The notes under the pieces were generated by a model. The model did no database searches and had not been told where the DNA came from. It saw nothing but the letters and a program-made list of their open reading frames with translations. The translations under genes and the position numbers were made by a program. From NCBI GenBank assembly GCA_019694875.1, contig JAIBBC010000001.1, positions 124,001 to 188,000 on the forward strand: a DNA stretch of 64,000 bases. Direction: 5' to 3'. Source of the DNA: Cyclobacteriaceae bacterium. Lineage in GTDB: Bacteria > Bacteroidota > Bacteroidia > Cytophagales > Cyclobacteriaceae. Position 1 is the stretch's first letter; every line of letters starts with the position of its first letter. Below are positions 27,813 through 59,503 of the stretch, piece by piece.

Positions 27813-29063
27813 ATGGAGTTATACTATTCTTTTTCTGTCTTGATTGTGCTTACAGCCATCTTTTCATATCTGAATCTCAGGTATTTAAAGTTGCCATCGG
27901 CTATAGGCATCATGCTGCTGGCGATGATCGTATCAATCAGCCTGGTAATCGCGGGTAAATCTTATCCGGATATGTTTACCGGATTTACCGATATCATTGC
28001 GAGTGTCGATTTCACGGAAGTACTCATGGGCTCCATGCTGAACTTCCTGCTGTTTGCCGGAGCCATTCATATCAGCCTCCACGATCTGCGCAAGCAACGC
28101 ATTCCCGTGATGATCTTTTCCACGATTGGTGTAATCATTTCGACCTTCACCGTGGGAACAATCCTGTATTTCACGTTTATAGTACTCGGTGTAACGATTC
28201 CCTTCATCGAATGCCTGGTGTTCGGTGCGCTCATCTCTCCTACCGATCCAATTGCAGTAATCGGTATCCTGAAGAAAGCGGGCATTCGTAAATCACTCGA
28301 AATAAAAGTTGCCGGTGAATCTTTGTTCAACGATGGCGTGGCGGTAGTGCTGTTTGCCGTACTGTTACAGCTTGCGCGTGGCAGCGAAGTCGATTTAACT
28401 TTCCTGCACATCAGTGGATTGTTTTTGCAGGAAGCCGGAGGCGGATTGCTCATGGGGTTGCTCCTCGGGTTTATCGCTTCTCAGGGCATTAAGCGAATCA
28501 ACAGCTACAACGTTACGGTAATGATCACGCTCGCTGTGGTTATGGGCGGCTACCTGGTAACCCGGGCACTTCACATTTCCGGACCGTTAACGATGGTTGC
28601 AGCCGGACTTGTTATCGGTAACTACGGTAAAGCTGTTGCGATGTCGGTTGCTGACAAGGACTATCTCGATAAATTCTGGGAACTGATTGACGAAATTCTG
28701 AACGCGATGCTGTTCCTGATTATCGGTTTTGAACTGTTACTGATTCCAAACCTTCAGCAATACTGGCTCATCGGCCCGCTTACTATTTTAATTGTGTTGC
28801 TGGCTCGATTCTTTTCCATCTGGTTGCCGATCAAATTTGTTCCCAACATTGGCTCGTTCGATGCGCGCACGATAACCATTTTAGTATGGGGAGGCTTGCG
28901 GGGTGGTGTTTCCGTTGCGCTGGCATTAACAATTGATGATCATTTGCATCATAATTTGTTCATGGCGATTACCTATTACGTAGTAGTTTTCTCGATTGTA
29001 GTCCAAGGGCTCACCGTAGGTAAGCTTACGCAGATGCAAAAGGCCAACAAGCGCGTGAAATAA
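27813..29063 (+). CDS. CPA1-family Na+/H+ antiporter (NhaP-like)
   Basis: 416 aa with 11-12 hydrophobic segments. The central SPTDPIAVIGILKKAG followed by KVAGESLFNDGVAVVLF carries the paired acidic ion-binding signature of CPA1 antiporters. A later WGGLRGGVSVALAL is the conserved Arg-containing segment. It should exchange cytosolic Na+ (or K+) for H+ at the inner membrane. There is no C-terminal regulatory TrkA-type domain, the protein ending soon after the last membrane segment. It appears to be transcribed alone or with the TPR gene 50 bp downstream. Confidence 0.93.
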   Translation: MELYYSFSVLIVLTAIFSYLNLRYLKLPSAIGIMLLAMIVSISLVIAGKSYPDMFTGFTDIIASVDFTEVLMGSMLNFLLFAGAIHISLHDLRKQRIPVMIFSTIGVIISTFTVGTILYFTFIVLGVTIPFIECLVFGALISPTDPIAVIGILKKAGIRKSLEIKVAGESLFNDGVAVVLFAVLLQLARGSEVDLTFLHISGLFLQEAGGGLLMGLLLGFIASQGIKRINSYNVTVMITLAVVMGGYLVTRALHISGPLTMVAAGLVIGNYGKAVAMSVADKDYLDKFWELIDEILNAMLFLIIGFELLLIPNLQQYWLIGPLTILIVLLARFFSIWLPIKFVPNIGSFDARTITILVWGGLRGGVSVALALTIDDHLHHNLFMAITYYVVVFSIVVQGLTVGKLTQMQKANKRVK

Positions 29064-29113
29064 CGTTACGATTACAAATAAACAAGTATCTTCACAGGCG
29101 TTCCCACAACCGC

Positions 29114-29779
29114 ATGGAGTTTACTGAAGGCGATATCTTTTATACGATTATTGAAAACAAGTATCACCTGCACAAAGTGCTGAAGGTTGATCATGATTTC
29201 AATACGTATCACGTGCTCGGATATGCTCCGGCAGAAAAATTGCCTGATCCGGAAAAAGTCACTGAATTGAGTGTGTTCATCTACCATTTCCCGATCGATA
29301 AAAACGGTTTTGAAAATCCTGTGTTGTTCACCAAGAGCATTGTGAGCGATGAAGAACTGACCGGTTATCACGAATACCTGCGCCAGACACAAAGCATCGA
29401 CTCCATCATTCAGGAAGCAACGCGGTATTTTCACGAAGGGTATTCGTTAACCGATCAGAAGAAACACGAAGAGGCAATTGAAAAGTATTCGCGGGCAATC
29501 GACTTATTCCCTACATTATACGAAGCAATCGACAACCGCGCCTTTTGCAAAATGGATCTCGGTCGCTGGCATGATGCGATCGAAGATTTCAAAATGTCGT
29601 TAACCATCCACCCGTACAGCGCATTGGCAGAATTTTCAATCGGTGAATGCTACCTCAAACTTGGCGAAGTACACACTGCTAAGGAATACGTTCAACGCGC
29701 ACTTGCCATCGACCCCGACCACGAATTATCGAAGGAGTTTTTACAGCGTTTAGAGGAATCTTCTAAAACCCTCCGGTAA
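29114..29779 (+). CDS. TPR-repeat protein
   Basis: 221 aa without a signal peptide, so cytosolic. Residues 1-95 form a unique domain beginning MEFTEGDIFYTIIENKYHLH. Residues about 105-215 are three tetratricopeptide repeats (GYSLTDQKKHEEAIEKYSRA; LYEAIDNRAFCKMDLGRW; SIGECYLKLGEVHTAKEYV). TPRs mediate protein contacts; the partner is unknown. It lies between the antiporter and marC-like genes on the same strand, with a near-consensus -7 element TATCTTCA about 20 bp before the start. Confidence 0.85.
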   Translation: MEFTEGDIFYTIIENKYHLHKVLKVDHDFNTYHVLGYAPAEKLPDPEKVTELSVFIYHFPIDKNGFENPVLFTKSIVSDEELTGYHEYLRQTQSIDSIIQEATRYFHEGYSLTDQKKHEEAIEKYSRAIDLFPTLYEAIDNRAFCKMDLGRWHDAIEDFKMSLTIHPYSALAEFSIGECYLKLGEVHTAKEYVQRALAIDPDHELSKEFLQRLEESSKTLR

Positions 29780-29791
29780 GCTTCTTTTCTG

Positions 29792-29799
29792 TAACTTTG
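29792..29799 (+). promoter_or_regulatory. TAACTTTG -7 box right before the MarC-family start
   Basis: A perfect TAnnTTTG -7 element ends 4 bp before the ATG at 29804. If used, transcription would begin at or within a few bases of the start codon, giving a leaderless or nearly leaderless mRNA. Confidence 0.55.
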
Positions 29800-29803
29800 C
29801 GGT

Positions 29804-30373
29804 ATGAGTTTCAAAGAGATTTTTTCGGTAACGCTTATTCTTTTCTCCGTAATCGACATTCTGGGTTCAATCCCGTTTATCATTAACATCCGTAAACGCG
29901 AAGGACGAATTCATGCCGAAAAGGCAACCATCATTTCAGCCGTGCTGATGGTGGCATTTCTTTTCCTGGGCCAGTCTATTCTTAATCTGTTCGGACTTGA
30001 TGTTGCCTCATTTGCAGTTGCCGGTGCAATTGTGATTTTTATTGTAGCGATGGAAATGATCCTGGGCATTACCCTGATAAAAGACGATCCGGATGCGAAA
30101 GGAACCGGATCAATTGTTCCGATCGCCTTCCCGCTTATTGCCGGTGCCGGAACATTAACAACCATCCTGTCGCTGCGGGCCGTTTATGCCGAGATTAACA
30201 TTCTTGTCGGCATTGTGATCAACCTCATTTTCGTTTACGTTGTATTACGTTCGTCTGCATGGCTGGAACGTGTAATCGGGAAAGCCGGCTTCGCAGTGCT
30301 TCGCAGAATCTTTGGAGTTATCCTGCTGGCTATCGCTGTGAAGATTTTTAAAGATCACGTGTTTCCGTCCTAA
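29804..30373 (+). CDS. MarC-family integral membrane protein
   Basis: 189 aa with six predicted membrane helices. The opening VTLILFSVIDILGSIPFII, the KATIISAVLMVAFLFLG block and the central PIAFPLIAGAGTLTTILSL are diagnostic of MarC/YchE/YhgN proteins. Despite the name, a role in multidrug resistance was not upheld for MarC; transport of small metabolites is suspected. The gene has its own apparent promoter immediately upstream. Confidence 0.92.
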   Translation: MSFKEIFSVTLILFSVIDILGSIPFIINIRKREGRIHAEKATIISAVLMVAFLFLGQSILNLFGLDVASFAVAGAIVIFIVAMEMILGITLIKDDPDAKGTGSIVPIAFPLIAGAGTLTTILSLRAVYAEINILVGIVINLIFVYVVLRSSAWLERVIGKAGFAVLRRIFGVILLAIAVKIFKDHVFPS

Positions 30374-30485: not shown

Positions 30486-31742
30486 ATGATGGCGAAGAAT
30501 TTTGTGAGGTTAGCTGTTGTTTGCTCAGCGCTCTGTACACTTTTGATGTTTAACGGTTGTTCTTCCGATGAAGACAAGGAGCCTAATATCACGGCTGCAG
30601 AAGGTCTGTTCATAAACGAAATTTCGGCTTCGGGAGACGATTGGGTTGAACTTTACAATTCTACCGGCAGCCAAAAAGACATTAGCGGTTATCGCATCCA
30701 GGACGATGGAGATGTTGACTATGAATTGCCCGATGGAACAACAGTTCCAGCCAACGGCTTCCTCGTAATTTATTGTGATGACACGAATACAGGCCTGCAC
30801 ACAAATTTCAAACTTTCTTCCGGTGGTGAAACGGTAACACTGAAGAACAGCAGCGGTGAAATAGCAGAAGCCGTTACCTATCCAAAGCTCGACAACGGCC
30901 AATCCTATGGCCGCTACCCTGACGGATCTGACAACTTTGCGATTTCTGGTAACACCAGTCAGGGATCTTCAAACGATGAAGCCAACGCACCTGCCATCAC
31001 CACTATTTTGCGCACACCCACAGTTCCGGCTTTAAATCAGGAAGTAACTATTCAGGCCGAGTTAACTAATACTGACCAGCTCAGCACAGTAAAACTGTAC
31101 TACAGTTTTGAAGGTGCTGATTACACATCGGCTGCCATGACAAAAGTTGGTAACTATTATACTGCAATAATTCCTGCCCAGGGAGCTGGCGTTACAGGAA
31201 CTATGAATTATTACGTTGAAGCGAAGAGTACAACCGGTGCCGTTAGCTACAAGCCATTCGATGCGCCTGCAGATTCATACCATTACCTGTTGAACAATGA
31301 TGCCTTGCCTGCACTCCATGTGAACGAGATCATGGCATCCAGTACAACGTGCTGCCCGGACGATGATGGTGGTGTTGACGAATTTGACGACTGGATTGAA
31401 ATTTACAACAGCAGCGCTTCTGCAATCGATCTGAGTGGCATGTATTTGTCAGACGATCTGAGCGATCCATTCAAATCGAAAATCCCGAACGGAGTAACGA
31501 TTCCGGCAGGTGGATTTTTGTTGTTCTGGGCTGACGAGCAGGGAAGCCAGGGGCCATTGCATATGAATTTTAAGTTGAGCAAAAGCGGAGAGTCTGTAGG
31601 CTTATTCTACATTGATGGCCGAAAAATCAGCAGCAAGGATTTCGGAGCACAGGATGATAACAAATCGTTTGGTGCCTTTGTCGATGGTGGTTCTACGTGG
31701 CAGCAGTTTACGAGTCCTACTCCTGGCGCTTCAAACAATTAA
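30486..31742 (+). CDS. Lipoprotein with two lamin-tail (LTD) domains
   Basis: 418 aa starting MMAKNF (ATG 30486 or 30489). The lipobox is FNGC. LTD 1 (about 38-150) has INEISASGDDWVELYNS and NGFLVIYCDD. An Ig-like central segment (165-275) follows. LTD 2 (about 285-410) has VNEIMAS, DDWIEIYNSS and GGFLLFWADE with a Cys pair TTCCPDD. Bacterial LTDs occur on secreted or surface proteins and are thought to bind polymers or other proteins. It is first in a same-strand cluster with DUF4956, HlyD, TolC and CotH genes, and it shares the LTD fold with the CotH protein. Confidence 0.85.
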   Translation: MMAKNFVRLAVVCSALCTLLMFNGCSSDEDKEPNITAAEGLFINEISASGDDWVELYNSTGSQKDISGYRIQDDGDVDYELPDGTTVPANGFLVIYCDDTNTGLHTNFKLSSGGETVTLKNSSGEIAEAVTYPKLDNGQSYGRYPDGSDNFAISGNTSQGSSNDEANAPAITTILRTPTVPALNQEVTIQAELTNTDQLSTVKLYYSFEGADYTSAAMTKVGNYYTAIIPAQGAGVTGTMNYYVEAKSTTGAVSYKPFDAPADSYHYLLNNDALPALHVNEIMASSTTCCPDDDGGVDEFDDWIEIYNSSASAIDLSGMYLSDDLSDPFKSKIPNGVTIPAGGFLLFWADEQGSQGPLHMNFKLSKSGESVGLFYIDGRKISSKDFGAQDDNKSFGAFVDGGSTWQQFTSPTPGASNN

Positions 31743-31766
31743 GTGATTTTAAATAACATGTAACCG

Positions 31767-32438
31767 ATGTTTGAACTATTCCCCGATCAGCCGGTATACG
31801 AATACCCCCAGCTGATAAATGTTCTGTACTGTTTTGCGTGGAGTTTTGTGTTATCGTCCATTATTGCCGTAACACACCGGCTCACGTTCACGGGTGAGTA
31901 TTATCCGAAAAACTTCTTTCAATCACTGATCCTTGGCTCAATTGTAACAGCCATGGTGATGATGGCCATTGGCGACAGTCTTGCGCGTGGCCTCGGAGTA
32001 TTTGGCGCCATGGCCATTATCCGGTTTCGCACCCGCATTGACGACCCGCGCGATGTACTCTTCCTGTTTGCTGCGCTCAGCACAGGCCTTGCCGTAGGTG
32101 TTTATGGCTTTACGGTTTCATTTGCCGGTACAATTTTGTTTTGTCTCGTTGCGGTTTTGCTGCATGTGTCGCCCTTCCGAAGCTTTACAAGCCCAAACAT
32201 GCTTTTCTTCAACCTGAAGAATACACAAGACCTGAATTCGGTTATCGGCATTATTGAGCAGCACACGGCCGCTCATCGTCTCGTTACCATTAACGTTTCA
32301 AAAAGCGGGGAGACGCGTTACCAATATGCGATCACCTTTCACAAAGAGCAGGAAAAAGATGTTCTGTTCAATGCGCTATTGGCAGTGGAAGGGCTGAGTC
32401 AACCAAAGATCACCGTAAACGAACCTGACAATGCCTAG
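31767..32438 (+). CDS. DUF4956 inner-membrane protein
   Basis: 223 aa. Four membrane helices lie in the first 135 residues, with the family core RGLGVFGAMAIIRFRTRI followed by DDPRDVLFLFAALSTG between TM2 and TM3. A cytosolic alpha/beta domain (about 145-223) follows. DUF4956 genes are usually found with VTC polyphosphate polymerase and CotH genes; its biochemical role is unknown. Here it overlaps the HlyD-like gene by 8 bp. Because no pump gene is present, it is the only inner-membrane multi-pass candidate to work with the adaptor and channel. Confidence 0.88.
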   Translation: MFELFPDQPVYEYPQLINVLYCFAWSFVLSSIIAVTHRLTFTGEYYPKNFFQSLILGSIVTAMVMMAIGDSLARGLGVFGAMAIIRFRTRIDDPRDVLFLFAALSTGLAVGVYGFTVSFAGTILFCLVAVLLHVSPFRSFTSPNMLFFNLKNTQDLNSVIGIIEQHTAAHRLVTINVSKSGETRYQYAITFHKEQEKDVLFNALLAVEGLSQPKITVNEPDNA

Positions 32439-33444
32439 CGACAAACACACCTCCGGCATTAACTGGTTTTACGGAGTGGTTGTAATTGTATTTGCAGCCA
32501 TGATCTGGATCAGCGCCAAATATTTCCGCGGAAGCGCGTACTCTTCTATCGGAATAACAGAAGTAAAAGAATACAAAATCAACTCCGAACGGTCGGCCCT
32601 GATTAAGTCGGTTCGCGTAGTCGCAGGTCAGCAGGTAAAAACAGGCGAGTTGTTAATTGAGCTCAGCAGCATCGAGCTCGAAATGGACATTGATAAAATC
32701 AGCAACCGGATAGTATTGCTGAAAGATGAACAGCAAAGTAAAGCACGGCTCATCCAGGCACAGGTAGACTACCTGCGTGCCGATCAGGGAATTCCGCTCG
32801 AAGAACTCGAAACCGAAATCGCGCAGACCAAAAGCGATATTCAGCTGAACAAAAAATTGACCAAGGAACTTGCCACAGGCAGCGATACATCTGTTTGGAA
32901 CGAGGCTGACAATCCGCTTCGCGTGAAGTTAAATTCACTCTACAAGCAGAAAGTACAACACAAGCAGGCCATGGTGATTAAAGAGGCTGATATCCGCCAG
33001 GAGGGTTTTATTGAGCAGCAACTGTTAAATAACCAGATCAAGTTGCTCGAACAGGAATTGGACCTTCTAAAAACAGAAAGAAGTAATCTTGTTAAGTATG
33101 CAAGCTCCGATGGCGTTGTTACCAGTGTTTACGTGAAGCCGGGTGAACAGGTAAGCTCATACACAGAATTGCTTGCAATAACTCCGGTGCGGCCAACAAC
33201 GGTAATCGGCTACCTGGCCGGGAAAAACAACAACACGTTTGTCGTGGGTGACTCCGTTCGCGTATCTGCCTATGGAAATGGCTCAATCAGAATTACCGGC
33301 CGCGTGATTGGCTATGGTGCAGTAACACAGTTGCCTGATATTCTTCAAAAGTCAACGGCAGTCAAAGCATTCGGACGAGAGGTGTTTATCGAGATTCCGC
33401 CTTCCAACAACTTCACCAATGGTGAAAAAGTACTAATCCGGTAA
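32431..33444 (+). CDS. HlyD/membrane-fusion-type periplasmic adaptor
   Basis: 337 aa with one N-terminal membrane anchor (WFYGVVVIVFAAMIWISA). A lipoyl/biotinyl half-motif follows (INSERSALIKSVRVVAGQQV, KTGELLIELSS), then a long coiled-coil hairpin (about 85-215), the second lipoyl half (ASSDGVVTSVYVKPGEQV) and a beta-barrel region (IGYLAGKNNNTFVVGDSVRV). This is the layout of adaptors that bridge inner-membrane pumps and TolC channels. The GTG/TTG question does not arise: the ATG at 32431 overlaps the DUF4956 end by 8 bp. The expected transporter partner is not encoded alongside. Confidence 0.87.
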   Translation: MPSDKHTSGINWFYGVVVIVFAAMIWISAKYFRGSAYSSIGITEVKEYKINSERSALIKSVRVVAGQQVKTGELLIELSSIELEMDIDKISNRIVLLKDEQQSKARLIQAQVDYLRADQGIPLEELETEIAQTKSDIQLNKKLTKELATGSDTSVWNEADNPLRVKLNSLYKQKVQHKQAMVIKEADIRQEGFIEQQLLNNQIKLLEQELDLLKTERSNLVKYASSDGVVTSVYVKPGEQVSSYTELLAITPVRPTTVIGYLAGKNNNTFVVGDSVRVSAYGNGSIRITGRVIGYGAVTQLPDILQKSTAVKAFGREVFIEIPPSNNFTNGEKVLIR

Positions 33445-33449
33445 GTATC

Positions 33450-34688
33450 ATGAGGCTGGCGTTCTTCTTCATCTTTCTTTTCACCGGAAGCTACCTTGCT
33501 GCGCAGTCGGGGTTCGGCTCTTTTATCAGCGCAGCGAAGAACGATCCTGCCGTAACGATGTTCGATCTTCAGGTCGATTATCTCAATCACCGTCCGTACC
33601 GCCTTGCACCGGTGCAAAAGTTTGAGTTCCGAACCGAGAGTAACCAGCTTGATCCTAACCGGCAGGAGTATGCACTTCGATTGAATCCTTCTAACCCTTG
33701 GGAAGTACGTCAAAACAACCTCTATTTTAAAGAGCTTAAATCCAGCCTTGCCCTTGAAAAGGGTGTTGTGTTAAAAGAGGCATTATTGCAGCGGTACATG
33801 CTGGTGGTTGAACTTGTTACGTATGCGAGCCTCCGCGACCTGGCGCAGCGCAAATTGGAACTTACCCAAACATCACTTTCGATGCTCGAGAAGCAACAAT
33901 TGTCGGGTTATTTCGATGGCGAAGATTATGTAGATATGAAGTTGGAAGAAATGGATAAGTCGGTGGAAACCGATGAAGCTGTTTACGAAGCTGAAAATGC
34001 AGTGCGCAAAGTTATCGCCATTTTTCCCGATGCGGCCCAAACCGCCAGGCAGTGGAACATTTCGGAAGTCATCACAATCGCACAAATAGAAAAGCTGCTC
34101 GACAGTTTGCAAACCGCGATGCCGGAGGCTACTACGCTTTCCTACTATCAAAAGAAAATTGATCTCGCAGACCGCGAATTCAAACTTGAGCGCAACAACA
34201 TTAACTTCGGATATATTCAGGCGAAATATCAGGACTTCCGCATCGATCAGGGAAGAAAGCCCTGGAGCATCGGGTTGGGAGTAACAATCCCAGTTTTCAA
34301 TCCAAACAAGGGTGACATGACCAAGCGCAGGCTTGAATCGATTGAGTCGCAGCAGGAATTAAAGGAAGCGAAAGTTGAAGCTGGCAAAGACCAGGTAAGG
34401 TTGCGCGAACAGCTGCGCGATCTTATTGCCAGCCACCGAAAGATTGAAGAGAAAATAAACGCTTTGAACGTAAGTTCTTTGGCGCGCACACTCAGCACCA
34501 TCCAAAAGAGCAACCCCTTAGCGAGCGTCCGGTTCCAAAGCAATCTGATTAAACTTGAAGAGCTTGCACTTAAACTGAAGCAAAACATTTTAACTACATA
34601 TACCGAATGGCTGGCCAGCACCGATGCTTTGCAGCAGCTGCCGCTTACAAACTATTTGTCGCGTAACCTCGAAACGCTCGCGGATTAA
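33450..34688 (+). CDS. TolC-like outer-membrane channel protein
   Basis: 412 aa with a signal peptide ending at SYLAAQSG. The sequence is mostly long amphipathic helices in two similar halves (about 100-190 and 220-400), and PWSIGLGVTIPVFNPNKGD is the strand segment typical of TolC/OEP family half-repeats. Five bases separate it from the adaptor gene, so the two are one transcriptional unit. It likely forms a trimeric tunnel. The helices are more divergent than in standard efflux TolCs, so the exported substrate cannot be guessed. Confidence 0.82.
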   Translation: MRLAFFFIFLFTGSYLAAQSGFGSFISAAKNDPAVTMFDLQVDYLNHRPYRLAPVQKFEFRTESNQLDPNRQEYALRLNPSNPWEVRQNNLYFKELKSSLALEKGVVLKEALLQRYMLVVELVTYASLRDLAQRKLELTQTSLSMLEKQQLSGYFDGEDYVDMKLEEMDKSVETDEAVYEAENAVRKVIAIFPDAAQTARQWNISEVITIAQIEKLLDSLQTAMPEATTLSYYQKKIDLADREFKLERNNINFGYIQAKYQDFRIDQGRKPWSIGLGVTIPVFNPNKGDMTKRRLESIESQQELKEAKVEAGKDQVRLREQLRDLIASHRKIEEKINALNVSSLARTLSTIQKSNPLASVRFQSNLIKLEELALKLKQNILTTYTEWLASTDALQQLPLTNYLSRNLETLAD

Positions 34689-34733
34689 GGTTACAAAACT
34701 TTACAGGTCATTATTAATACACCACGTCAGGGC

Positions 34734-37700
34734 ATGATGAAGAAGCTGTTTTTTGCACTATTCTTACTAACCGGTACCGCTGTTTCCGCACAGGTGGTAC
34801 TCAATGAAATTTGTCCGGCCAATGCCGATATAAATTACGATCCTGATTTCTACAATTTTTCTTCGTGGATTGAACTCCATAACTCCGGTACTTCAACCGT
34901 AAACATCGGTGGTTTCTATCTTTCCGATGATGAAAGCTCACCCCTTAAATGGCGTGTACCTGCCAACACCACCATTCCCGCCAACGGATTTATTATTTTC
35001 TGGTGTGACGATGAAGACACGGGCAGACACACAAATTTTTCGCTCGACAGTGATGGAGAAGATGTAGTAGTTTCCAATAGCGCGGGCCAGCTGATGGACA
35101 AGATCACGTTCCCAAAACAGTTCACCAACATTGCATACGGTCGTGTAACTAACGGAACAGGTGCATGGGCTTACCTCGCGGTACCGACACCCGGCACGGG
35201 TAACAACCCGGCAAGCGCTGCTCAACAATTAGCCAAGCCAAAGTTTTCCGTTAACGGTGGTCGCTACTCAAGCCCGGTTCAGGTTTCGTTATCGCACAGT
35301 AAAACAGGTGCTGAAATCCGGTACACCATTGATGGCAGTGAACCGATCAGTACATCAGCTTTGTACAGCGCCCCGGTTTCTATCAGTCAAACACAAACTA
35401 TAAAGGCAAAAGCATTCTTAACCGGATTTCTGCCCGGTGAAACAGAAACACAAACTTACTTCATCAACGAGCATGCGTTCTCGTTGCCCGTTGTTTCCAT
35501 TTCCATGAAACCTGAATATCTCTACGATAATACCATTGGAATTTACATTGAAGGAACCAACGGGGTGCCGGGTTATTGTAACGGCAATGCAGTCAACTGG
35601 AACCAGGACTGGGACCGTCATGCGGTTTTTGAATATTACGACAAAGATGGAAACCGTCTTTTTAATCAATCGGTAGATGTTCGTATCGGGGGCAACTGTT
35701 CGCGTAACCAACCGCAAAAGTCGTTTGCTATCAAGGCGCGCGATAAATACGGCAGCAACATCATGAACTATAAATTCTTCGACAATAAAAGCATCAACCA
35801 GTTTGGCGCGCTTATGCTTCGCAATTCCGGCAATGATTTTAACGTGACGATGTTCCGTGATGCATTCATGCAGGCGCTGCCGGTCGGGCAGATGGATGTC
35901 GACTACATGGAGTACCAGCCTGCGGTTCTGTACCTCAACGGTCAGTACATGGGTATTCAAAATCTGCGTGAAAAAATTGACGCTGACTTTTTCGAAAGCA
36001 ATTACAATGTCGACAAAGACAATCTCGATCTGATTGAAACGTGGGATCAGAACGTGCTCGAAGGGTCGTACGAAGGTTATGTGAATTACAAAAACACACT
36101 GGCCGGCATGAACCGTACTACGCAGGCTGCGTACGATTTCATCGATCAGCACATCGACATCCAGGAGTACATCAACTACCTGGTTTGTGAAATATACTTT
36201 GCCAACACCGACTGGCCGGGTAATAACATGAAGTTCTGGCGCGATGCTTCAGTTAACGGCAAGTTCCGCTGGGTTCTGTGGGATACCGATTTTGGATTCT
36301 ATCTCGTAGGTGATCCTGCGCATCCCACGTTAAATTTCGCTACTGCAACAGATGGCCCGGGCTGGCCCAATCCACCATGGTCGACCGAACATATTCGTTT
36401 TTGCCTGGAGAACCCGTTGTTCCGGGCACGGTTTATTCAAACCATGAACACGGCATTGAATACTACGTTCCAGCCCGACCGGGTGATCAGCATTGTCAAT
36501 CAGTTTCAAGCGGGCATTGCGCAGGAAATGCCTTTCCATAAAACGCGCTGGTGGGGCGACATGAACAGCTGGAATTATGAAGTTCAGCGTCTGCGTGATT
36601 TCACAACTACCCGTACTCCGTTTATGCGTCAGCATATGGCCGAATTTTTTGGTCTTGGTGAAATGGTTAACATTTCAACCAGCGTGGCGCAGGGCGAAGG
36701 CCAATTCAAACTCAACGGTGTTACCGCAGATGCAAACGCAACACAACCGTACTTTAAAAATTTGCCGGTGAAAATCGAGCCCGTACCGGCATTGGGGTAT
36801 GCATTCAAGGAATGGAAAATCCGCAAGAGACAATCGCAGGCTGTGCCTTTAATTACGTCCGGAACAACGTGGAAATACTTCGATCAGGGAAGTATGCAGG
36901 TGAACTGGAATACTGCTGCGTTCAACGATGCATCATGGGCTTCTGGTCAGGCGCAGCTTGGGTATGGCGAAGGCGATGAAGCAACAGTTGTAAGCTATGG
37001 GCCCGATGCCAACAACAAGTTTATCACTACGTATTTCAGAAAAACATTTTCTGTTGCCGACACCGTTGGCTTTGCGGCATTAACGGGAAGTATTTTGGTA
37101 GATGACGGAGCGGTAATCTACCTGAACGGAGTTGAAATGACCCGCATGACCATGCCCGGAGGAACGATCACTTATTCAACATTAGCGCTTGACGGAACCA
37201 TTGAAGGTTCGTATACCGCATTCACGATCCCGAAAGGATTGATTAAGCCCGGCACGAATGTGCTGGCTGTTGAGGTACACCAGATTAACGGCAGCAGTTC
37301 GGACCTGAGTTTTGATTTAACACTGAGCACTGTAAAGCTGGGAAGTGAAACGATCGAAACCTCTACCGAACCTGTTCAGGTTGATACTGCCCTTTCCGAC
37401 ATTAGCTACGAAGCCACGTTTGAACCGTTCGGAACGATTGTAAACAACATCATCATCAACGAAATCAGTACCACACCTTCTGCGCTGCTGGATAACAACG
37501 GTGAAGCCGAAGACTGGATTGAATTATACAATGCAGGATCACAGGCTGTAAACCTCGGTGGCCTGTATCTCACCGACAATTTGAATAACCGCACCAAGTA
37601 TCAGCTCCCTGCCGGTATCGGGTCGTTGCAGCCGGGCGCGTATAAAATTGTGTGGGCCGATGAAGATGTTGCGCAAGGCGCTGATCACCTGGGTTTCAAG

Positions 37701-38123
37701 CTTTCGAACGATGGCGAGGCTGTGGGCCTTTACCAAAAGCTGGGCGAAAACATTCATATGATTGATGAATATGTATATAATGCTCAGCTGATCGAAGGTT
37801 CTTTCAGCAGAATACCGAATGCCACGGGGCCGTTTGTTTTCACGAAAGTGAGTACACCTGATGCCTTGAACGAAATCATTACCGGCTTTGAGAATGACGA
37901 CCTCACCATAAGCGTTTATCCGAATCCGGTAAGAGAATACCTGAGTGTGGATTCACCGCGACCGATCGATATTATGATTTCGGATTGTATGGGCCGAACC
38001 ATTCAACAGTTCTCTCAGGTAACGCAGCAGCAATTATTGCTCACCAATAATCCTCCGGGGATTTATATCTTGCGGCTTAAATCGGGCAACCGGTTAAAGA
38101 CGTTAAAGATTATCAAGGAATGA
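34734..38123 (+). CDS. CotH-kinase protein with lamin-tail domains and T9SS type A signal
   Basis: 1129 aa with a signal peptide (to AVSAQV). In order: LTD 1 (17-150), a chitobiase/FN3-like module (165-245, IRYTIDGSEPISTSALY), a CotH kinase domain (about 255-640), a jelly-roll-like beta region (700-880), LTD 2 (905-1040), and a type A C-terminal sorting domain (VYPNPVREYLSV, IYILRLKSG). CotH motifs visible are RIGGNCSRNQPQKSFAIKA, the Arg/Asn-rich LMLRNSGNDF, EYQPAVLYLNGQYMG, and the metal-binding WVLWDTDFGF. CotH of Bacillus is an atypical kinase that phosphorylates spore-coat proteins. Here the enzyme would act at the cell surface. It overlaps rnhA by 4 bp. Confidence 0.9.
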   Translation: MMKKLFFALFLLTGTAVSAQVVLNEICPANADINYDPDFYNFSSWIELHNSGTSTVNIGGFYLSDDESSPLKWRVPANTTIPANGFIIFWCDDEDTGRHTNFSLDSDGEDVVVSNSAGQLMDKITFPKQFTNIAYGRVTNGTGAWAYLAVPTPGTGNNPASAAQQLAKPKFSVNGGRYSSPVQVSLSHSKTGAEIRYTIDGSEPISTSALYSAPVSISQTQTIKAKAFLTGFLPGETETQTYFINEHAFSLPVVSISMKPEYLYDNTIGIYIEGTNGVPGYCNGNAVNWNQDWDRHAVFEYYDKDGNRLFNQSVDVRIGGNCSRNQPQKSFAIKARDKYGSNIMNYKFFDNKSINQFGALMLRNSGNDFNVTMFRDAFMQALPVGQMDVDYMEYQPAVLYLNGQYMGIQNLREKIDADFFESNYNVDKDNLDLIETWDQNVLEGSYEGYVNYKNTLAGMNRTTQAAYDFIDQHIDIQEYINYLVCEIYFANTDWPGNNMKFWRDASVNGKFRWVLWDTDFGFYLVGDPAHPTLNFATATDGPGWPNPPWSTEHIRFCLENPLFRARFIQTMNTALNTTFQPDRVISIVNQFQAGIAQEMPFHKTRWWGDMNSWNYEVQRLRDFTTTRTPFMRQHMAEFFGLGEMVNISTSVAQGEGQFKLNGVTADANATQPYFKNLPVKIEPVPALGYAFKEWKIRKRQSQAVPLITSGTTWKYFDQGSMQVNWNTAAFNDASWASGQAQLGYGEGDEATVVSYGPDANNKFITTYFRKTFSVADTVGFAALTGSILVDDGAVIYLNGVEMTRMTMPGGTITYSTLALDGTIEGSYTAFTIPKGLIKPGTNVLAVEVHQINGSSSDLSFDLTLSTVKLGSETIETSTEPVQVDTALSDISYEATFEPFGTIVNNIIINEISTTPSALLDNNGEAEDWIELYNAGSQAVNLGGLYLTDNLNNRTKYQLPAGIGSLQPGAYKIVWADEDVAQGADHLGFKLSNDGEAVGLYQKLGENIHMIDEYVYNAQLIEGSFSRIPNATGPFVFTKVSTPDALNEIITGFENDDLTISVYPNPVREYLSVDSPRPIDIMISDCMGRTIQQFSQVTQQQLLLTNNPPGIYILRLKSGNRLKTLKIIKE

Positions 38124-38575
38124 TCCGCATTTATACCGATGGTGCCGCACAGGGCAATCCGGGACCGGGAGGTTATGGTACCATCATGAAGTATGGCCAG
38201 CACGAGAAGGAATTCTCAGCCGGCTTTCGCCTGACGACCAACAACCGGATGGAATTGCTTGCGGTGATCATCGGCCTGGAGGCAATCAAGAAAGACGGTA
38301 TTCCGATTACGATCTATTCGGACTCGAAGTATGTGGTCGATTCGATTGAGAAGGGCTGGATCTGGGGCTGGGAAAAGAAGAACTTTGCCAAGAAGGCGAA
38401 TCCCGACTTATGGAAACGCTACATACCGCTGCATAAGAAATTCAAACCGAAGTTTGTGTGGGTAAAAGGCCATGCGGGGCATCCGGAGAATGAGCGCTGC
38501 GATGTTCTGGCTGTGCAGGCTGCACAAAGCGGCAACTTACCGGCCGACAGCTGGTTTGAGATGAACATGGAGTAG
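38120..38575 (+). CDS. rnhA: Ribonuclease HI
   Basis: 151 aa, full length. It cleaves the RNA strand of RNA/DNA hybrids. The DEDD catalytic set is complete: Asp7 in IYTDGAAQGNPGPGG, Glu45 in NNRMELLAV, Asp68 in IYSDSKYVV and Asp128 in NERCDVLA, with the flexible His in GHAGH. The ATG overlaps the CotH stop by 4 bp, which ties a housekeeping gene to the surface-protein operon by coupling. The 3' end is 1 bp from the convergent HEAT gene. Confidence 0.96.
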   Translation: MIRIYTDGAAQGNPGPGGYGTIMKYGQHEKEFSAGFRLTTNNRMELLAVIIGLEAIKKDGIPITIYSDSKYVVDSIEKGWIWGWEKKNFAKKANPDLWKRYIPLHKKFKPKFVWVKGHAGHPENERCDVLAVQAAQSGNLPADSWFEMNME

Positions 38576-40867: not shown

Positions 40868-41363
40868 ATGCGATGTTTTTTAGATTATTAAGATGTAAAC
40901 AAATGATTTCTCAACGATGCACACACCGCTCGTCTGTGAGGTGGTATCTTCTTCCTGAAGTCGCGTCCTGTGTTAGGAAGCGATAGCGATTAACGAAAGT
41001 TAGAACTTTACACTAACTTATCACGACCTTCACCACGATGCGTAATCAGTTGTCTCAAAATGTCAGTATAGTTTTGTTATGAGTCGATGTGTGTCGTATC
41101 AGTTAACGTGTTCTCTGAATCAGAGATATCATATTGCCGTCCTGTAGTTGTGATGTGGTGATTAGGTTATCGAGTTGATCGCTACAGGTGCGGAGATGCG
41201 TTACTTCTGGAAAAGGGGTGGTTTTGTGGGGTAACCTGTGCGGTCTTGGCGGGCTCGCATTCCGAGCAGGCCGGATTTCCGGGTTAGCATGATCGAATTT
41301 GCCTGAAGCAGGGCGTTGGTCGGGAAAGCTGAAGAAACAGGCGCAAGTTTTCTTGCCAACATT
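40868..41363. other. About 500-base gap without a gene
   Basis: I see no supported gene, hairpin or promoter in this stretch. It leads directly into the 21-bp tandem array. Confidence 0.55.
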
Positions 41364-41762
41364 GCTCTAACTCTCCGTAACATCGCGAGTTCCATACTTT
41401 ACATCGCGGGAATTAACTTTTACCACGCGAGTTCCATGAGTCACATCGCGCCAACTACAATTTGCACTGCTCCAACACTCACTCACATCGCTCCAATACT
41501 CGCTCAACATGCCCCAACACTCCGCGTGGGTGCTCCAATACTCGCTAAACATGCTCCAATACTCGCTCGCATCGCTCCAACACTCCGTGTGGGAGCTTCA
41601 ATACTCGCTAAACATGCTCCAATTCTCCGCGTGGTTGCTCCAATACTCAGCGTGGGAGCTTCAATACTCGCTCAACATGCTCCAATTCTCCGCGTGGGTG
41701 CTCCAGTTCTATGCGTGGGTGCTCCCATACTCTGTGTGGTTGCTCTAAATTCCGTGCGGGAT
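41364..41762. repeat. Nineteen-unit 21-bp tandem repeat array
   Basis: Nineteen contiguous units of exactly 21 bp run from 41364 to 41762 with no indels. The left half is near-constant GCTCCAATACTC. The right half is one of two types: GCTAAACAT/GCTCAACAT-like or CGCGTGGGT/CGTGTGGGA-like. Units 1-6 are the most diverged (for example GCGAGTTCCATACTTTACATC). Because 21 is divisible by 3, two forward frames and part of a reverse frame stay open through it, giving repeated heptads such as APILAKH/APTLRVG. No ribosome site or conserved flanking coding sequence supports translation. Confidence 0.92.
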
Positions 41763-41876
41763 CTCTTACATATCGTTCAGGGTGCCTGTTTTCCTGCTGA
41801 ATAAGCCTATTTTACAGTTGTGAGCAGGAATTTTCCCGGAGGTATGCAGGAATGCAGCAAGCTTTCCCGTTCAGCT

Positions 41877-59470: not shown

Positions 59471-59503
59471 TTTTTGGACGGGAATGCCGAATTTATAACT
59501 TTG
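59471..59503 (+). promoter_or_regulatory. Bacteroidota-type promoter (-33 TTTTTGG, -7 TAACTTTG)
   Basis: TTTTTGG at 59471-59477 and TAACTTTG at 59496-59503 match both consensus boxes, with about 19 bp between the TTG and TA. Transcription would start near 59510, giving a leader of about 14 bases for the lipoprotein gene at 59524. Confidence 0.7.

Follow-up and report, generated by a model that had tools for sequence, protein, structure and literature searches.

The locus considered here raises the question of what a periplasmic adaptor and a TolC-fold outer-membrane channel, two parts of a proposed tripartite system, might convey between a DUF4956 membrane protein and a secreted CotH-type kinase. 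It lies in a window of 64,000 nucleotides from a Cyclobacteriaceae bacterium and consists of five ORFs (Table 1). An earlier note on this DNA had described five tightly spaced genes with lamin-tail domains at both ends, and the ORF list of the window, together with Pfam and NCBIfam, bears out the genes, their coordinates and their spacing, the successive intergenic distances being +24, -8, +5 and +45 bp (the 8-bp overlap joins the DUF4956 and adaptor ORFs); LTD was found in two stretches in each of the two end proteins. A separate promoter and terminator inside the cluster had been named as an argument against it. Sequence scans of the locus yielded such sites at chance level only (10 promoter-like sites against 12.4 expected, and 8 terminator-like sites against 9.7 expected), by which a single transcript is not proven. 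A Bacteroidetes promoter pattern has its sole match in the window at 59473, outside the locus. The transcript may exceed the five genes, since the last 4 bp of the CotH ORF are shared with an RNase H ORF (38120-38575), and the region upstream (27813-30373) carries, in the same orientation, ORFs for a Na/H exchanger, a TPR protein and MarC, separated by 50, 24 and 112 bp. Elsewhere in the window, the ORF at 41316-41804 is a 21/63-bp tandem repeat (APTLRVGAPILAKHAP-like) that may not be a gene, and positions 22-1857 encode a DUF285-repeat protein with TIG and CHU_C T9SS domains, partly through 75-bp tandem repeats.

Table 1. Genes of the locus, with window coordinates and the evidence for each assignment
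Feature	Coordinates	Strand	Evidence
Double lamin-tail-domain lipoprotein, 418 aa	30486..31742	+	Pfam LTD 116.8 bits, two stretches; lipobox
DUF4956 protein, 223 aa, adaptor-linked type	31767..32438	+	Pfam 45.2 bits; structure model; MgtC profile match; hydropathy
HlyD/EmrA-like periplasmic adaptor, 337 aa	32431..33444	+	Pfam HlyD_3 and Biotin_lipoyl_2; PDB profile matches; hydrophobic segment
TolC-fold outer-membrane channel protein, 412 aa	33450..34688	+	Predicted structure; Foldseek; hhalign
Secreted CotH-type kinase, 1129 aa	34734..38123	+	Pfam; TIGR04183; residues aligned to 5jd9

Both HlyD_3 and Biotin_lipoyl_2 exceed their Pfam cut-offs in the adaptor, which carries one N-terminal membrane helix (hydrophobic segment 7-34) and whose profile finds the solved structures of EmrA (6e-9) and MacA (3.5e-8). 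The channel protein has no family over the cut-off in Pfam or NCBIfam. Its TolC label, given in the earlier note without support from a sequence family, holds because the predicted structure (pLDDT 87.2, pTM 0.80), in which long helices are combined with two beta hairpins, matches those of TolC, OprM and CusC (Foldseek E down to 2e-10, TM about 0.63); in hhalign, the channel matches the OEP-family alignment at 94%. Some VTC-bearing loci contain weak phytase-like or SdiA-regulated (propeller-type) matches (L138:11744-12664, L059:5930-6886 and the C-terminal part of L133:10749-12755), in a protein that is either separate or fused to the C-terminus of the adaptor.

No inner-membrane pump of the ABC, RND or MFS type was detected by Pfam in the locus or in five genes next to it; the gene at 27813 encodes a Na/H exchanger, which is none of these, and no energy source is visible in the operon. 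Nor does a pump family recur around the triads formed by DUF4956, HlyD and TolC genes. For 88 such loci, the 574 unlabelled ORFs lying no more than 6 kb away were examined by motif and clustering: the most widespread family occurs in 17 of these loci, the next in at most 13, and an ABC-type signature in 4. A recurrent pump adjoining the triads was not found within this distance of the 88 loci.

The gene that does travel with adaptor and channel encodes the DUF4956 protein. It exceeds the Pfam cut-off of 30.6 bits and represents a low-scoring, divergent type, with 45 bits compared to about 140-205 for most of the matches listed. Hydrophobic helices, one of them bearing a GxxGAxxIIRFRT motif, are followed by an ACT-like C-terminal domain, which the earlier note had not described. 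The structure model, of moderate quality (pLDDT 77.8, pTM 0.58), contains helices and then a beta-alpha-beta-beta-alpha-beta domain, the best PDB matches of which include ACT domains (Foldseek E about 0.006, none below 0.001). A sequence search for solved relatives of the protein gave none with a convincing E-value. In profile comparisons by hhalign, the adaptor-linked DUF4956 type matches canonical DUF4956 at 87% and MgtC at 81% (pairwise P 1.2e-5, in the region around GLGxxGAxxII), compared to just 12% for canonical DUF4956 and MgtC and 0.4% for the unrelated adaptor profile. The NCBIfam MgtC model scores the window protein weakly (20.8 bits, cut-off 214). An adaptor-linked DUF4956 gene in another genome (G027:C11:79807-80148) is matched by the MgtC Pfam model at E 6.3e-4, under the cut-off. 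MgtC itself has an ACT-like C-terminal domain. Judged from these profiles, the membrane part of DUF4956 and MgtC are probably distantly related. The MgtC/SapB profile matches in the membrane region around GLGxxGAxxII, and an ACT-like domain would be common to both, whereas the window-type DUF4956 is adaptor-linked and has a conserved R-F-R-T motif.

The R-F/Y-R motif sits in the helix that follows the second segment in the membrane. Since the peptide pattern behind the set of 80 loci described below contains R-F-R, its conservation was counted only in rows found otherwise: it is present in 13/13 canonical, 27/31 VTC-plus, 17/18 VTC-less adaptor-linked and 4/6 other rows, and thus missing from four VTC-plus rows and one VTC-less row. 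Its retention fits a retained polyanion path and is only suggestive of it. In the window's genus, two genomes (L069:6412-9442 and L070:9263-12371) have a canonical DUF4956 gene with unlabelled genes of 341 and 480 aa after it, and for 4.5 kb around it no VTC was labelled on that strand.

At the two ends of the locus stand proteins that appear destined for the cell surface. The CotH domain (Pfam 162.4 bits) is accompanied by LTD in two stretches, CHB_HEX_C_1, Fn3_assoc and Por_Secre_tail, and the protein begins with a hydrophobic signal-like segment and ends in a type A T9SS sorting domain (TIGR04183 46.9 bits, cut-off 23). A single-sequence search of the PDB with CotH found nothing; a profile search finds spore coat protein H (5jd9) of B. 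cereus. When two alignments are combined, K329, E413, D416, D493, D517 and D519 match positions of 5jd9, so that catalytic and metal residues are kept, and the loss of active-site conservation that could have spoken against the earlier note did not emerge. In PMC7821199, CotH is reported to have kinase activity, for which D228 of the B. subtilis protein is needed, a D228Q variant being inactive; the ATP source of spore-surface CotH is there called unanswered. D493 of the window protein would be the counterpart of B. subtilis D228. The lamin-tail protein carries the lipobox LMFNGC, which leads into an acidic stretch (CSSDEDKE). On the usual meaning of a lipobox and of such a following stretch, this lipoprotein is probably surface exposed. 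Its gene holds the same position in the relatives L053, L109-L113, L115, L117 and L119.

How far these genes belong together was examined by scanning species genomes with a DUF4956 alignment (A1); the locus set comprises the best 80 of 565 confirmed stretches. The DUF4956, HlyD and TolC genes are contiguous in 75 of these best 80 loci, mostly with short gaps or overlaps. Four of the five exceptions (L120, L132, L136 and L166) end at a contig boundary, and in the fifth (L149) the adaptor is followed by an unlabelled ORF of 411 aa that matches neither channel profile. The adaptor gene adjoins DUF4956 in 77 of the best 80, and the remaining three are truncated where their contig stops. As a same-strand run, the triad was recorded in 74 of the 79 loci with a called DUF4956 ORF; the remaining locus of the best 80, L118, had this ORF removed by the overlap filter but proved to be a triad when inspected, so that it counts among the 75 and not among the 74, in the tree or in the distances. 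The lineages concerned include Bacteroidota, Balneolota, Fibrobacterota, desulfobacterial and other groups. In a sample of 395 genomes of the phylum, newly fetched high-scoring neighbourhoods contained the triad in 8/8 cases (8 of 20 genomes, L209 repeating L125). The medium-scoring ones (20 regions from 20 of 38 genomes of this class) had an adaptor-like neighbour in 19/20, a VTC neighbour in 19/20 and, according to our own channel profiles, a same-strand channel gene in 0/20. Within the order, the window DUF4956 was matched in 19 of 241 genomes, six of which, the window's included, reach at least 40% identity over most of the protein length, and complete five-gene copies are found at L053, L109, L110, L111, L112 and L115. 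The conserved unit is therefore the three genes DUF4956-HlyD-TolC, which CotH and lamin-tail genes accompany in a variable manner. The earlier expectation of a conserved cluster holds for the three-gene core across several phyla; of the 74 triads among the best 80 of 565, 29 include CotH in the same-strand run (10/15 VTC-bearing and 19/59 VTC-less). Over 86 loci, the distance matrices of DUF4956, adaptor and channel correlate at 0.89, 0.86 and 0.89, values of a size that shared ancestry alone can give; for DUF4956 and CotH, the correlation is 0.47 over 30 loci. What follows the channel gene differs from locus to locus among those examined (short-chain dehydrogenase, glycosyltransferase, methyltransferase, acetyltransferase). 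Two candidates in the Balneolaceae were dismissed at the one locus scanned (L125): the gene of about 240 aa after TolC is a short-chain dehydrogenase and not a hidden VTC, and the gene of about 183 aa before DUF4956 encodes DUF6580 and not a lamin-tail protein.

The earlier note had called this a locus without a VTC enzyme, which extends to the whole window genome, where 0 VTC matches were obtained. VTC, CotH and PPK1 were sought in 52 of the 64 triad genomes first listed, all with VTC-less triads, and 36 of the 52, the window genome included, have no VTC match anywhere. VTC is inside the triad run in 15 of 74 cases among the best 80 of 565 stretches; when same-strand genes within 4.5 kb are counted in this set (leaving out L118 as well as L114 and L116, which are copies of L054 and L053), it accompanies 0/52 triads of Bacteroidota, 0/5 of Balneolota and 15/15 of other or unassigned phyla. 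Operons of the order HlyD-VTC-DUF4956-OEP nevertheless exist in genomes of the window's own order (f85; L058-L062 by profile, L059 by Pfam), and a CotH-DUF4956-HlyD-TolC-VTC arrangement is present at L214 in G617, a genome of the window's own phylum group. The earlier proposal that the adaptor/channel pair had replaced VTC is contradicted by these operons, which carry all three, and by a rooted tree, which suggests that the adaptor was gained before VTC was lost.

This DUF4956 tree, a quick one with a long outgroup branch, comprises 141 proteins (145 rows less the contig-cut L068, L120, L136 and L166) and is rooted on 11 canonical ones, one row falling on the wrong side of the outgroup. Adaptor-less, mostly VTC-linked loci stand at its base, followed by loci with VTC and adaptor and then by VTC-less triads, which are mainly found in two derived groups, one of 30 rows including the window (SH-aLRT 98) and one of 43 rows (SH-aLRT 96). 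Under parsimony, the adaptor changes state 3 times and VTC 7 times. Since the VTC-less L063 and L064 are placed elsewhere, the tree implies repeated loss of VTC, and the channel may have been acquired on two occasions, as OEP-like and window-type channel profiles occupy different parts of the tree. The likely order on this tree is thus VTC-DUF4956, gain of adaptor and channel, and loss of VTC. The ten aligned operon VTCs keep the motifs ERK, RxR and ExK, which are of catalytic significance in this enzyme family, and this retention of basic and acidic motifs makes polyphosphate the natural candidate for the ancestral cargo, which may have been abandoned given the 36 of 52 VTC-less triad genomes lacking any VTC. 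PPK1 is present in 50/52 of these genomes, including that of the window, the two exceptions being small assemblies (G549 and G551), and was rejected as a marker because it is too widespread to discriminate.

The tie with CotH is closer at the level of genomes than in gene adjacency, and this co-occurrence supports the earlier note. CotH is encoded in 51/52 VTC-less triad genomes. In the phylum sample, the triad-type profile A2 matches 63 genomes, of which 58 are not weak matches and include VTC-bearing as well as VTC-less loci; CotH is found in 57 of these 58 compared to 78 of the 337 others, a comparison uncorrected for phylogeny in which the five weak matches count among the others. The 20 highest-scoring genomes all have CotH (20/20), as do 115 of the remaining 375. 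The window genome possesses a second, higher-scoring CotH gene (G000:C1:779456-780523, L072), and in the surrounding 19.9 kb no gene was labelled as DUF4956, adaptor or channel.

There is good support for a conserved module of adaptor, channel and DUF4956 that has no pump gene to itself; beyond it, we infer that the parts assemble and transport something, what drives them, what they carry and that it reaches CotH. From the sequences and predicted folds, the three proteins would quite likely form a tripartite envelope conduit, with DUF4956 as the partner in the inner membrane, the HlyD/EmrA-type adaptor in the periplasm and the TolC-fold channel in the outer membrane. It is supposed that this conduit arose on a VTC-DUF4956 polyphosphate background, VTC still being present in the operons of many relatives. 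DUF4956, with its R-F/Y-R-T motif, would pass a phosphate polyanion (polyphosphate or a nucleotide) into adaptor and channel, a cargo proposed tentatively; the polyphosphate of VTC-less genomes would perhaps be made by PPK1. At the surface, the polyanion might be phosphoryl donor or substrate for the T9SS-type CotH kinase and lamin-tail surface proteins, and such delivery to CotH is more doubtful than the cargo. Taken as a whole, a conduit ancestrally used for polyphosphate and now serving surface CotH phosphorylation is the best explanation, its chances lying somewhat below even. It draws on the synteny, the folds, VTC within operons, the order in the tree, CotH co-occurrence, the motif and the lack of a recurrent pump, and further on PPK1 in 50/52 genomes and the distance correlations of 0.86-0.89. 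Against it count the 36/52 triad genomes without any VTC, the wide spread of PPK1, the uncorrected shared ancestry behind co-occurrence and distances, the five rows that lack the R-F-R motif, the presence of CotH in just 29/74 runs (best 80 of 565) but also in 78/337 other genomes, the separate second CotH gene, the moderate DUF4956 model, ACT matches with E >0.001 and the lack of a visible energy source. A more specific version is rather unlikely: here, the MgtC-related DUF4956 would replace the pump and thread polyphosphate or another donor via HlyD and TolC to surface CotH, export having once been driven by VTC synthesis and VTC-less lineages having rewired the source.

Equally unlikely as this version, and the strongest of the competing explanations, is a tripartite exporter of some other small molecule or peptide, for which the link to VTC and CotH would be historical and a new use would have followed VTC loss. 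The absence of VTC from the window genome and the rest of the 36/52 triad genomes and the varying genes after the channel fit such an exporter, which leaves CotH in 51/52 of these genomes and 57/58 in the phylum sample, as well as the R-F-R motif in 17/18 VTC-less rows not chosen by motif, to be accounted for. Improbable to a further degree is a role of DUF4956 as a sensor or regulator, which would gate adaptor and channel while a pump from another locus drives them: the MgtC profile match, the ACT-like matches and an operon without energy source agree with it, whereas the pairing with the adaptor in 77/80 loci (best 80 of 565), often with overlapping ORFs, and the lack of a recurring pump-like family within 6 kb of the triads oppose it. 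Very little speaks for the view that adaptor and channel secrete the co-located lamin-tail or CotH proteins by a type I route, as CotH has an N-terminal signal-like segment and a T9SS sorting domain, the lamin-tail protein has a lipobox and no ABC protein was found by Pfam among the genes scanned. A chance neighbourhood of unrelated genes, for which the patchy distribution might be cited (19/241 genomes of the order matched, six at 40% identity or more), is rejected by synteny, the three genes standing together in 75/80 loci (best 80 of 565) from several phyla.

The preferred conduit would differ from the systems it resembles. EmrAB-TolC, MacAB-TolC and HlyBD-TolC, efflux and type I secretion systems with inner-membrane pumps of established types, share the EmrA/MacA-related adaptor and the TolC-fold channel with the locus; among the genes scanned here, however, there is no ABC, RND or MFS pump, and the inner-membrane gene that travels along is DUF4956. 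According to PMC7112168, CotH, a polyphosphate polymerase and DUF4956 occur as accessory genes beside Gram-positive Pel clusters, and PMC2879425 places VTC and CotH genes in one locus. Compared to such VTC-DUF4956-CotH neighbourhoods, which likewise combine DUF4956 and CotH, there with the polymerase (PMC7112168), the window locus adds the adaptor and the TolC-fold channel, lacks VTC and has a low-scoring DUF4956. With the eukaryotic VTC complex and its VTC channels, as treated in PMC10657179, the idea is shared that polyphosphate is synthesised on one side of a membrane and leaves by a channel to the other, whereas the window locus has no VTC domain, has another membrane protein and would have to span two membranes. 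A description of DUF4956 with adaptor and channel was not found in the one open-licence library searched. If the proposed explanation is true, DUF4956 gains a role and a pump-less class is added to the tripartite export systems. It would also suggest a dedicated bacterial route for polyphosphate export across two membranes and offer an answer to the question of how CotH kinases at the surface come by a phosphoryl donor.
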